DNA of 64,000 nucleotides from positions 1 through 64,000 of the forward strand of contig JANJWP010000005.1 in the NCBI GenBank assembly GCA_024709505.1. Direction: 5' to 3'. Shown here piece by piece: positions 53,299 through 59,681 of this stretch. The number at the start of each line of letters is the position of its first letter. Position 1 is the stretch's first letter. The notes under the pieces are model-generated. The model worked only from the letters and a program-made list of their open reading frames with translations, did no database searches and was not told the origin of the DNA. This DNA comes from Candidatus Altimarinota bacterium. GTDB lineage: Bacteria; Patescibacteriota; Gracilibacteria; BD1-5; UBA2023. Position numbers and translations under genes: made by a program.

Positions 53299-53595
53299 TT
53301 AGCTGATGGCTCCCGAAAGCAGGAGATCGACGGTCTTATAAAAATCAACCCCGATTTTCTGGTTGTCGCGCTCGGCTTGAAGGATGACGAGCTCGATTTC
53401 TTTGGAAACCGCTTCACGTTCGGCGGAATTTTTCAGCGCGTCGATCCTCGAACAAAGCGATGTGAGCGCTTCCCTGAAGGCGGGATCGGAGTTTTTTTCT
53501 CCGAGCGAAAGGAGTTTCTCCTTGGTTTTCTCGGTTGCGGAAACGGAAGTTTCGGTTTCGGATTCGACGGGAATCCTTCCTCGTTCGACGTTCAT
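53299..53595 (-). CDS. Small hypothetical helical protein
   Basis: MNVERGRIPVESETETSVSATEKTKEKLLSLGEKNSDPAFREALTSL... Confidence 0.5.
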   Translation of the reverse strand: MNVERGRIPVESETETSVSATEKTKEKLLSLGEKNSDPAFREALTSLCSRIDALKNSAEREAVSKEIELVILQAERDNQKIGVDFYKTVDLLLSGAIS

Positions 53596-53679
53596 GGGCG
53601 GGTTCGTAAAAGAATTTCGGACAGTATAGGCCCAATCGAAAAGATTTCCAATCCTTGCGCGTTTGCGTATCGTATCGGC

Positions 53680-54894
53680 ATGAAACGCAACTACGTAAAA
53701 ATCGGCGTTGACGAGGCCGGGCGTTGACCGTGGTTTTGACCGGTCGTCGCGGCGGCATTGGCTTTCAATCCGAACTCTCCCGTTCCGGAAGGGCTTTTTT
53801 CGTCGCTCAAAGACAGCAAGGCCCTTTCGCCGAAGGTCCGGGAAGGGATATTCCACCAACTCGTCGCCTTGGCTTCTTCGGAAAATCCGTCGGTATTTTT
53901 CGGGGTTGGAACATGCGACAATTTCCTCATTGACGAAATCGGCATTAAAAAGGCCAACCGCGAGGCGATGCGCCGAGCGCTCGAAGAAATCGTTCGGAAA
54001 CTCCCGGGGGAACTTGAAATCAACGCCGTCGTCATCGACGGAAACGACGGTTACCAATTCCAGGAAACCGTCGGCCGCGAAGCGGTTTCGGTCGTTCGGG
54101 GCGACGCCAAGATCCCCGAAATCTCGGGCGCTTCCATCATTGCCAAGACGTTCCGGGACAAACTCGTTGACGCATACGCCCCGCTCTATCCGCACCTCGG
54201 CCTTGAAACCCACAAGGGATACGGCGTAAAAAAACATGCCGACGCCCTTTGCGATCCATCCAAAGTGACCTGAGCGCACCGAAAAAGCTATGCGCCCGTA
54301 CAAGCCGCCCTCTCCCGGAAACCCAAACTTCTTTTGCACGTTTGCTGCGGCCCGGACGCAACGGTTCCCATCATGGATCTCAAGGACCAATACGACCTCC
54401 TTTGTTTTTGGTACGACCCCAACATCCAGCCGAAAGACGAATACGACCGACGTCTCGAAGCTTTCAAAAAGGTTTGCGAAATCGAAGGCGTTCCATTTAT
54501 CGAAGGCGACTACGACGTGGCGGAATTCCTTTCGGAAATCCGAGGGCTCGAACATACGCCCGAAAAAGGCGAAAAATGTTCCAAATGCTATGACATGCGC
54601 CTTCGGAAGACCGCCGAACTCGCGGAGTCCCTCGGAATCCGACGGTTTTCTTCGACGTTGAACAATTCGCCCCACAAAGACCTTTCGAAAATGTTTTCCT
54701 TGGGCGAAAAAAACGCCCTCGAACGGAATCTCGAATTCCTGAAGATCGCCTTCCGCAAGAACGGGGGATTCGATCGGAGCGTCCAATACACCAAGAAGCA
54801 CGGGATATACCGTCAAAATTATTGCGGATGCGTTTTTTCCGAAACGTTTCCCAAGCCCGGAGCGGAAATTCCGGAAGGGGAGTGGCGGGGATAG
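53680..54894 (+). CDS. RNase HII-QueH (epoxyqueuosine reductase) fusion protein; TGA at 53716-type positions and 54271 read as Gly
   Basis: MKRNYVKIGVDEAGR[G]PWF[G]PVVAAALAF...KDSKALSPKVRE...YPHLGLETHKGYGVKKHADAL...VT[G]AHRKSYAPVQAALSRK then KLLLHVCCGPDATVPIMDL...CFWYDPNIQPKDEYDRRLEAF...KCSKCYDMRLRKTAELA...FSSTLNNSPHKDL...QNYCGCVFSE; no TAA/TAG between domains. Confidence 0.92.
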
Positions 54895-54937
54895 CCGCCA
54901 TCGCCCGTTGCCTCGCCCAGTTTCCCCCTTTGGAATC

Positions 54938-54965
54938 TTGACATTGGTATTGTATTGCCTATAAG
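54938..54965 (+). promoter_or_regulatory. Sigma70-like promoter
   Basis: TTGACA (54938) - N16 - TATAAG (54960). Confidence 0.65.
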
Positions 54966-55098
54966 GCTTTGGAAACGCAGGTGGGATTTTTCCGTTCCAA
55001 CCCTTGGTAAAGAATCCATACCAAAAACGACTCCCCCCGCTTGAAACGAGCGGACTTTCCGGCGTTTTCGGTAAATGCCGCGCCTTCCTTTTCCTTCC

Positions 55099-57063
55099 AT
55101 GATAAAACACGTTCCCGTTCCATTCGACCGTTATGGTTCCGATGACTATTTCCGCGTAGCGGAAGGTCTCGCGAACCTATCGGAAAAGCCTTTCCGGGGT
55201 TCTTTGGTCGAAAAGGAAATCGAAACCGGAATCCGCTATTTCGTGAGAAAATACGGCCTCAAAATTTCGGAAATCTTCGATTTCGACACCGTGATCGCAC
55301 GGGTCGAGGCGCGTTCGGAGGAATCTGAAAACGGCCTTTCGGATTTGGGGTTCCTTGTTAAATTCCGAGCGCGCTCCCTTTCTCAAGGGTCCGCGTCCAT
55401 CAAAGACGTCCTCCAAAACGAATTTGAAGCGCTTCTTCGCGAAGGGCCGCTCGCGTATTTTTCGTGGGCGTGTCCGAGGGAGAAAACGGTTCTCGCCGCA
55501 AGCGCCAATGCCGAGCGCGTTTTCGGGCGGGCGCCCGAATCCTTTTCGGCCGGCAGTACCGAATATTTCGAGCTCATCCATCCTGACGACGTGGAAACGG
55601 TGAAAAATGACCTCTCCGAATTTCTCCGTTCCCGGTCTGGCGAATTCGATCTCCACTACCGCATCGTGCAGCCTTCTTGACAGGTTCGTTTCGTCCGCGA
55701 CCATACGCGCGTCATTTACGACGAAGACGGCGAGATGCTCCAATCCTACGGATTCGTCCTTGACGTGACCGACCGCGAAGAATCCCGTTTCGTCATGGAC
55801 GAATACGTTCGGGCCATAGACCAAAGCGCCATCGTTCAAATCGTTGATCGGGAGGGGATGGTCGTGTACGTGAACGACCTGTATCGGAAAGTTTCGGGAG
55901 ACACCCGGGAAATCGTCGGCAAGCCCGTTCGGATTCTTGGGGGACGCAAATACCACGACCAAGAATTTTGGGAAAACCTTTGGTCAACCGTTTTGGAAGG
56001 AAAGATATGGAGCGGCGTCGTTCAGAACCCGCTTCCGAGAGACCCTTCGGAAAGCTATTATGCTTACACCACCATCACGCCCGCTTGCAATGCCCGGGGA
56101 GAATACGACCGTTTTATCGCCATCAAGTTCGACGTGACGCGGTTGAAGGAGGTGGAATCGGCACTCCGTGAAGCCAATGCCCGCTTTGAGAAAATCATCG
56201 ACTCGACTTCGCAGGGGTTTTGGTCCCTCGATCGGGATTTGCGCATTTCGGAGGTGAATTCCTCGCTTTGCCGGATGCTTTGATATTCTCGCGAAGAGCT
56301 TTTAGGAAAGGATCTCCGCGAACTTTTCGACGAAAAGAATCGCGAAATCCTGGAAGCCCAGGCGAAAAACGTCGCGACGACCGATCATCGAAAGTACGAT
56401 CTCGAGATTCTCCGCAAGGATGGAGCTTCGCTCCCCATCATGATCAATGCCACGAGTCTTCGCGCCGAAGACGGAACGTTTTCCGAGGCGGTAGCTTTCG
56501 TCACCGATTCGACGGAAGCCAAGGCCTTCCAAACGCGGCTGTATTTGGCCTCGATTACCGACGAACTCACCCAAACCGGAAATCGGCGACACTTCGACAA
56601 GGAACTCGCCCTCGCATTCGACGATTTGGTTCATTGGCGAATTCCCAATCTTTCCCTCATCGTCCTCGATCTCGACAATTTCAAGCGGATTAACGACAGT
56701 TTTGGGCACGATAACGGGGACAAAGTGCTCCGTTTCATCGGAAACAAGCTCGGCTCGCTTTCGAATTCGAAGTTTTCGGTCTTCCGCCTCGGAGGCGAGG
56801 AGTTCGGAATTCTCGGGAAGGGGATATCGCTCGATTTAATGCGCGAAGTGGCCGAGAGCCTTCGTAAGGACATCCAGCGTTCGCCGGTAGATATCGGGGC
56901 ACAACATCCTTTGCGGATCAGCATCAGCGCATGAGTCGCCTCGCTCGATTCGGCCCAAGCGACTGAACATGCCCCAGTAGACCTCTACCGCTCTGCGGAC
57001 GCGCTCCTATACCTTGCGAAAAATAGCGGGAGGAACAACGTCAAAGCCCAGACGATCATGTAA
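55099..57063 (+). CDS. Multi-PAS diguanylate cyclase (GGDEF-domain) protein; 4 in-frame TGA
   Basis: PAS-like segments (FELIHPDDVETVKNDL; GKPVRILGGRKYHDQEFWENLWSTVL; ...YSREELLGKDLRELFDEKNR); DELTQTGNRRHFDKEL; LDLDNFKRINDSFGHDNGDKVL; FRLGGEEFGIL; ends TAA 57061. Confidence 0.9.
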
Positions 57064-57690: not shown

Positions 57691-57859
57691 TTGGGTCGTA
57701 AGGTCGTTTCGCGTTTCGAAAAACGTCCGGTTTGGCACCCGGGACGGAAACGTAAAAAGACCGAGAGAGCCGCACTTCACGCGGAACTCGGGTGGAACCG
57801 CTCCGAAACGTCGGAGTCCCGAGGCCCGGACGCCGTCCGAGGGCCTCTTTCTTTTTTTC
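57691..57859 (+). promoter_or_regulatory. T-box riboswitch (Gly specificity) upstream of glyS
   Basis: Promoter TTGAAA 57663 - N16 - TATCCT 57685; antiterminator CTCGGG-TGGA-ACCG-CTCCG-aaacgt-CGGAG-t-CCCGAG (57787-57823); overlapping terminator GAGGCCCGGAC-gcc-GTCCGAGGGCCTC-TTTCTTTTTTT (57821-57859); TGGA complements UCCA of U73 tRNA-Gly. Confidence 0.9.
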
Positions 57860-57935
57860 GAGAGGGCGTCCGAGACGGATTCGGGCGGATTTTTTTTCGC
57901 GAATTTTTCGCGAATATCCTCTCACCCCTTTTCGT

Positions 57936-59339
57936 ATGGAAATGAAAGATCTGGTTTCTTTCGCAGTAGCGAAAGGCTTCGTTTACCAGGGTTCCGAGAT
58001 TTACGGCGGCCTCGCGAACGCTTGGGATTACGGCCCGAACGGTGCGCTTTTGAAGGAAAACCTTAAAAACCTCTGGATCAAGCATTTCGTCCAGAAGCGC
58101 TCCGACATGGTGCTTTTGGATGCGGCGATCCTCATGAATCCCCAGACCTGGGTGACTTCCGGCCACGTCGGAGGGTTTTCCGATCCGCTCATGGATTGCA
58201 AATCCTGTAAGCAGCGCCTTCGCGCCGACAAGCTCGTCGAAGAATACGTCGAAGCCACCGGAGACGCCGAGATGCCCGCCGAGTGGGCAGGGGAGTCCAC
58301 TCCCGCCGCCAATCTTACGGCCTACATCGCCAAGAAGGGGATCAAGTGTCCCAATTGCGGCGGAACCGATTTCAGCGACATCAAGAAGTTCAACCTCATG
58401 TTTAAGACGTTCCAGGGCGTTACCGAGGATTCCACCGCGACGGTGTACCTCCGTCCCGAAACCGCCCAGGGAATTTTCGTAAACTTTTCCAACGTCGTCC
58501 GGACTTCGCGCAAAAAGGTTCCTTTCGGTATCGCGCAGGTAGGAAAAGCGTTCCGCAACGAAATCACTCCCAAGAACTTCATTTTCCGCACCCGCGAGTT
58601 CGAACAGATGGAAATCGAATTCTTCTGCGAGCCCGAATCGATCGCTCCGGGCAAGCATCTCGAATGGCACGAAGCATGGAAGACCGTCTGCTGGAATTTC
58701 CTCACTAAGACGGTCGGGCTTAAAGAAGATCTGATGCGCTTCCGCAACCACGGACCGGACGAACTGTCGTTCTATTCGGCCGCGACGACCGATATCGAAT
58801 TCTATTTCCCCTTCGGCTGGGGCGAACTGTGGGGAATCGCCGACCGTACCGACTACGACCTTTCGGCCCACATGAAGGAATCCAAAGCCGACCTCGCGTA
58901 TTTCGATCCGTTTACCAACCAGAAATACGTTCCGTTCGTCATCGAACCGTCGCTCGGATTGAACCGCCTCATGCTCGTAACGCTCATTTCGGCCTACGAC
59001 GAAGTCGATTCCGGCGAAGGAAAGCGCGTCGTACTGCGCTTCAAACCCGAAGTGGCTCCGGTAAAGGTGGCCGTCCTTCCGCTCGTGAAAAAGCTCTCCG
59101 AAGAAGCCAAAAAGGTCTACGACCTCCTTTCCGACCACTTCGTCTGCGAATACGACGACGCCGGAGCCATCGGCAAGCGGTACTACCGGATGGACGAAAT
59201 CGGCGTTCCGTTCTCGATCTGCGTCGATTCCGAAAACTTCGAAGCCGGCCAGGTGACCGTCCGCGACCGCGACACCGGACTTCAGGAAACGGTGAAAATG
59301 GACGATCTCGTCGAATACTTCCGAAAGAAGGGGTGCTAA
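57936..59339 (+). CDS. glyS: Glycyl-tRNA synthetase (alpha2/eukaryote-like type)
   Basis: KGFVYQGSEIYGGLANAWDYGPNGALLKENLKNLW; TYLRPETAQGIFVNF-like VYLRPETAQGIFVNFSNV; RTREFEQMEIEFFCEP; VIEPSLGLNRLMLVTL. Confidence 0.97.
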   Translation: MEMKDLVSFAVAKGFVYQGSEIYGGLANAWDYGPNGALLKENLKNLWIKHFVQKRSDMVLLDAAILMNPQTWVTSGHVGGFSDPLMDCKSCKQRLRADKLVEEYVEATGDAEMPAEWAGESTPAANLTAYIAKKGIKCPNCGGTDFSDIKKFNLMFKTFQGVTEDSTATVYLRPETAQGIFVNFSNVVRTSRKKVPFGIAQVGKAFRNEITPKNFIFRTREFEQMEIEFFCEPESIAPGKHLEWHEAWKTVCWNFLTKTVGLKEDLMRFRNHGPDELSFYSAATTDIEFYFPFGWGELWGIADRTDYDLSAHMKESKADLAYFDPFTNQKYVPFVIEPSLGLNRLMLVTLISAYDEVDSGEGKRVVLRFKPEVAPVKVAVLPLVKKLSEEAKKVYDLLSDHFVCEYDDAGAIGKRYYRMDEIGVPFSICVDSENFEAGQVTVRDRDTGLQETVKMDDLVEYFRKKGC

Positions 59340-59606: not shown

Positions 59607-59681
59607 TGGCTCCCCGAACAGGATTCGAACCTGTGACCCACCGGTTAACAGCCGGTTGCTCTACCGCTGAGCTATCGAGGA
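59607..59681 (-). tRNA. tRNA-Asn(GUU), CCA encoded
   Basis: TCCTCGATAGCTCAGCGGTAGAGCAACCGGCTGTTAACCGGTGGGTCACAGGTTCGAATCCTGTTCGGGGAGCCA; 7-bp acceptor, GTT anticodon. Confidence 0.96.

Follow-up and report, generated by a model that had tools for sequence, protein, structure and literature searches.

The stretch of DNA analysed here (the window; 64,000 nucleotides of contig JANJWP010000005.1 from a Candidatus Altimarinota bacterium) carries, at positions 53680..54894 on the + strand, an rnhB-queH fusion gene that encodes 404 amino acids under genetic code 25 and ends in a TAG stop. Sequence comparison confirmed the gene as one protein-coding fusion and no assembly accident, because 51 of the 360 class genomes have the same fusion, with its catalytic residues intact and with a junction of constant length in 45 copies. 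We consider it probable that the product is two independent enzymes in one chain, that the two genes became joined end to end in a small genome, and that QueH is a repeat hitchhiker on the C-terminus of its partners. Neither half has an unusual function; the interest lies in the repeated hitchhiking of QueH on unrelated proteins.

The frame contains a ribonuclease HII (RNase HII) domain at residues 8-205 (53701..54294, + strand) and a QueH domain at residues 217-388 (54328..54843, + strand), separated by a junction of residues 206-216 (54295..54327, + strand) in which the C-terminal helix of RNase HII ends and leads directly to the first strand of QueH. Both domains were delimited by Pfam, by the alignment of 41 fusions and by fold matches to RNase HII structures and to Thermotoga maritima QueH (7lc5), respectively. 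The Pfam match to RNase_HII (PF01351) scored 93.3 bits against a cut-off of 25.8 and covered positions 1-197 of the 199 in the profile, and that to QueH (PF02677) scored 200.2 bits against a cut-off of 23.5 and covered positions 1-173 of 175. The narrow NCBIfam equivalog models for ribonuclease HII gave at best 154.9 bits, below their cut-off of 167, and we do not claim that label for the window protein; its assignment to RNase HII is based on Pfam, conserved residues and predicted fold. An open frame of 404 codons with TGA read as sense is not rare by chance (P about 0.06 from the window-wide TAA and TAG frequency, at 54% GC), so the evidence for the fusion is homology and not length. Full-length orthologues with 54-64% identity are present in dozens of genomes, which bears out the earlier note in its reading of a single RNase HII-QueH frame. 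A TGA-free antisense open frame of 603 amino acids also lies across the gene (53299-55110, - strand) and has probably arisen from the GC-rich composition of the coding strand.

Only three TGA codons occur in the frame when it is translated with table 25. Those for Gly16, in the DEAGRG motif (53725..53727, + strand), and Gly20 (53737..53739, + strand) fall in glycine columns that are invariant across the 41 aligned fusions, and that for Gly198, ahead of the HR motif (54271..54273, + strand), in a column with Gly in 35 of 38. The 41 aligned orthologues hold 612 TGA codons, and the orthologue of one f20 genome (G241), which lacks TGA altogether, has Gly opposite 428 of them and other residues far less often. 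Since the G241 gene is TGA-free, this evidence for TGA as Gly is not circular. The window's genome thus combines the two marks of code 25, UGA at conserved glycines and a UCA-anticodon tRNA, and the earlier reading of TGA as Gly stands. The tRNA has a tRNA-Gly(GCC) about 20 bases away and is probably a UGA-reading tRNA-Gly; ARAGORN labels it SeC from its anticodon (contig C27, 50923-50998; G000, L211). A gene that, by its sequence, probably encodes glycyl-tRNA synthetase, the enzyme expected to charge such a tRNA, was seen in the window 3 kb from the fusion (57792-59339, + strand). UGA to Gly recoding is established for this bacterial group (for example PMC4032931 and PMC8629427).

Under table 11 the fusion gene breaks into pieces, as had been predicted. 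The claim that the fusion is revealed only under code 25 was right for the window gene and too broad for the fusion as such: the G241 frame contains no TGA, so the architecture is independent of the altered code, and each code-25 copy still requires code 25 to be read. In recoded Gracilibacteria table 11 misses or mis-splits both rnhB and queH, so the choice of table affects whether queuosine salvage is recognised in these bacteria, which probably depend on hosts.

Both halves of the protein look active from their sequences. Among the 41 aligned fusions, D11, E12, D120, D142 and Y181 of the RNase HII half are invariant, as is the GRG motif (G14-R15-G16), and in the QueH half the same holds for C222, C223, D226, C300, C303, C382 and C384. 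C222 and D226 align with the positions mutated in the solved C9S and D13N mutant structures of T. maritima QueH. One f2 genus (g14; L023, L025, L026, L027, L028, L029) has roughly 40 extra residues inserted in QueH, close to residue 345 of the window protein, that are absent in most relatives.

The spacing between the HRxSY motif of RNase HII and the HVCCGP motif of QueH is 15 residues in 45 fusions from families f1, f2 and f20 (43 found by automatic matching, and G047 and G027 by eye), while the linkers of the f5 fusions are variable and about 42-44 residues or longer. RNase HII-only relatives end in KPIKRLLEK (G052), KPVKKFLEK (G055) or KPIKVVLEKNN (G113), and stand-alone QueH proteins begin with MKLLLH or MQKLLLH; judged by these sequences, the junction corresponds to a natural RNase HII end joined to a natural QueH start. 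An AlphaFold2 (AF2) model of the whole chain (pLDDT 88, pTM 0.75) has a helix at residues 205-211 that runs into a strand at 216-221. Its two domains separately match Escherichia coli RNase HII in 7uwe (TM 0.89 by target) and the T. maritima structure of QueH, 7lc5 (TM 0.89). Structure prediction thus upheld the two folds, whereas the inter-domain contacts raised alongside them gained little from the constant spacing: a packed interface under selection could produce it, but of the 15-residue windows in the alignment 74% are just as free of gaps, and because most of the aligned protein behaves like the junction, its constancy is only weak evidence for an interface or for coupling.

It is highly improbable that the protein works as two products, made by internal initiation or proteolysis, and not in its fused form. 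The candidate start near 54334 that had been singled out earlier is a TTG codon at residue 219, from which the table 11 list has an open frame of 186 amino acids. This TTG lies within the first QueH strand, part of which would be cut off by a start there, and the relatives have no conserved internal start near the beginning of QueH: an ATG occurs within 12 codons before the QueH motif in 2 of 44, and TTG and GTG codons are scattered among them. The constant junction length also speaks against separate products. We rejected initiation at the junction, as its start codons are not conserved in the relatives.

A search for other single rnhB-queH frames showed that the window gene has wide company. 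QueH was found in 73 of the 360 class genomes, which we classed by extracting their frames. Of these, 51 encode RNase HII-QueH fusions: 42 in f2, which includes members named Candidatus Gracilibacteria and Patescibacteria (L031, L032), two in f1 (the window's family), six in f5 and one in f20. Another nine, all in f1, encode QueH behind a nucleotidyltransferase domain (PF01467) with NadD-type motifs (G003, G005, G007, G009, G014, G016, G019 and G021, with loci L133, L135, L136, L138, L140, L141, L142 and L144; and a contig-edge fragment in G023), and 13 have stand-alone QueH. Where RNase HII was found in the NadD-like-QueH genomes it is a separate gene. Both arrangements occur within one genus, in which G006 has RNase HII-QueH and a free NadD-like protein, and G016 has NadD-like-QueH and a free RNase HII. 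G009, G014, G019 and G023 have, 1-2 kb from the fusion, a further NadD-like gene of a more ordinary kind. A third partner, a family-4 membrane glycosyltransferase (Glycos_transf_4), precedes QueH in two f173 genomes read with the standard code (L244:1468-3039 in G692 and L245:1435-3000 in G677), probably as an independent event; by eye, the neighbours are alike in both, with a gene for a Clp-type ATPase upstream and a transpeptidase-like gene downstream. In the rest of the phylum sample, QueH is found in frames of stand-alone length.

Separate rnhB and queH genes do exist in relatives, but the strict case in which the fusion had been expected to fall, an adjacent rnhB-queH pair split by TAA or TAG, was not seen among them. 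The sole adjacent pair that we found, in G227 (L162:1343-2542), has the reverse order, with unfused queH and rnhB on the same strand and few bases between them; the two genes can therefore be neighbours outside the fusion. In a MAG labelled Bacteriovorax (L033:4512-5687) we also observed a GTG-start protein of 391 amino acids that ends in a QueH domain 56% identical to that of the window and whose N-terminal part of 170 amino acids has no Pfam family.

The recurrence of QueH behind three unrelated known partners, always as the C-terminal part and usually with a KPK-like junction just ahead of its first strand, could mean that the partner in front acts as a generic carrier for QueH folding, dimerisation or tRNA binding, with selection acting on the possession of a carrier and with many soluble or membrane proteins of suitable C-terminus able to fill the role. 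We regard this as unlikely, since QueH stands alone in T. maritima (7lc5, 9deu) and mostly does so across the phylum sample, and since a C-terminal position is also expected if queH simply lay downstream of its partner. Likewise improbable is the version in which, in small-genome bacteria, QueH was repeatedly selected to sit C-terminally on a stable but unrelated enzyme that gives it stability, dimerisation or RNA contact, with a switch of carriers within one family, from RNase HII to the NadD-like enzyme or the reverse.

A single clade (98% SH-aLRT) unites all QueH domains of f1, f2, f5, f20 and f23. Within the QueH tree the NadD-like-QueH domains are nested among those of RNase HII-QueH, which would fit a change of partner from RNase HII to the NadD-like protein, but the alternative was not rejected (AU p 0.21). 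In the RNase HII tree the window's genome (G000) and G006 group with f2, apart from the other f1 copies. A single clade of all f1 copies was marginally rejected (AU p 0.04), and the placement of G000 and G006 with the NadD-QueH genomes was not rejected (AU p 0.19); the grouping would suggest horizontal transfer of the fusion, on tests that are marginal in both cases. The six f5 fusions with their long, variable linkers may be independent or ancestral, an ambiguity that arises because losses would likewise break up the clade.

The genome of the window encodes the partners that QueH needs in its pathway, as a check for queuosine genes showed. It has TGT (contig C2), which is also present in 59 of 60 relatives, QueA (contig C21, where two pieces lie in a single frame) and the full set of four GUN tRNAs; QueC and QueG had no match in it. 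Among the relatives searched, QueG was found in none and a full QueC in one only. Where QueA and QueH are present without QueC, the expected route is salvage of preQ1 or preQ0 and not synthesis (PMC11130926), and the fusion QueH therefore probably serves a salvage-type pathway. A YhhQ-type transporter was considered as the salvage route and rejected, as none was found in the window's genome. The tRNA-Asn(GTT) to which the earlier note had drawn attention is real (59607-59681, - strand), but it adds nothing to a link, being 4.7 kb from the fusion in a genome that has all four GUN tRNAs.

QueA and QueH are found together in f2, with QueA in 42 of 42 QueH-positive genomes versus 1 of 7 QueH-negative ones (Fisher p 5e-7, uncorrected for kinship); the kinship-corrected test had 3 independent pairs, none of them against the association (p 0.25). 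Where QueA is lost, QueH is lost too, cut off at the junction, and RNase HII remains: in G052, G055 and G113 the protein consists of RNase HII only and ends in LEK or LEKNN, at the junction itself. In five genomes (G008, G012, G013, G017 and G028) QueA is present and neither QueH nor QueG was found; epoxyqueuosine may be the end product there, unless it is reduced by an enzyme of another, unknown kind.

These losses and the alternative partners bear on the functional link that had been proposed between R-loop or ribonucleotide removal and queuosine status, in which the fusion might bring QueH to RNA or sense Q-tRNA at sites of transcription or replication. The conservation of the fusion through f1, f2 and f20 with a constant junction, and the pTM of the whole chain, fit such coupling. 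It is nevertheless very unlikely, because QueH sits on NadD-like partners in nine f1 genomes and on the membrane glycosyltransferase in f173, RNase HII is kept without QueH in genomes that have lost the queuosine branch, and stand-alone length is the rule for QueH in the phylum sample. The proposed link is thus unsupported, and we conclude from QueH on other partners and from RNase HII outlasting the queuosine branch that the two enzymes probably share a chain and not a reaction. Against this preferred reading of two independent enzymes, the constant junction in 45 fusions could mean a selected packed interface, an argument weakened by the many equally gap-free windows, and the fusion persists through the deep divergence of f2, more steadily than drift alone suggests.

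With two independent enzymes in one chain, the N-terminal half would be the only RNase HII detected in the cell, and the C-terminal half would act as the epoxyqueuosine reductase that completes queuosine on GUN tRNAs after TGT and QueA, in a pathway that presumably begins with a salvaged 7-deazaguanine base. The fusion would have arisen when an upstream rnhB was joined end to end with queH, and it may have been retained because a reduced genome can then supply both enzymes from a single promoter, start site and polypeptide. The choice of partner by QueH would then carry no shared chemistry. This case counters the usual inference that fused proteins are functionally linked, with the same QueH domain on three unrelated enzymes; the inference also fails here in that QueH disappears when its own pathway does and the partner remains. 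The literature searched, mostly papers outside subscription, contained no description of an RNase HII-QueH fusion and no paper that mentions QueH together with RNase HII, and the novelty of the fusion is provisional.

Compared with known RNase HII (rnhB, PF01351; T. maritima 3o3g, E. coli in 7uwe), the N-terminal half has in common the DEDD residues, the GRG motif, the GYG tyrosine, the C-terminal HRxSYxP motif and the fold, but the fusion continues with a complete second enzyme past the natural RNase HII C-terminus. Its QueH domain is 36% identical to T. maritima QueH in the fold search (7lc5; PF02677/DUF208) and keeps the paired cysteines and the equivalent of D13; in contrast to the stand-alone T. 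maritima protein (structures 7lc5 and 9deu), it is joined N-terminally and lacks a start codon of its own. The NadD-like-QueH fusions share with the window fusion the QueH clade, the C-terminal placement and a similar KPK(I/L)L junction, and differ in having PF01467 instead of RNase HII as partner. The Glycos_transf_4-QueH proteins, from another family of the phylum and encoded without TGA, likewise have QueH at the C-terminus (the G692 junction reads RQKPKLLLQVCC) but carry it on a membrane glycosyltransferase.
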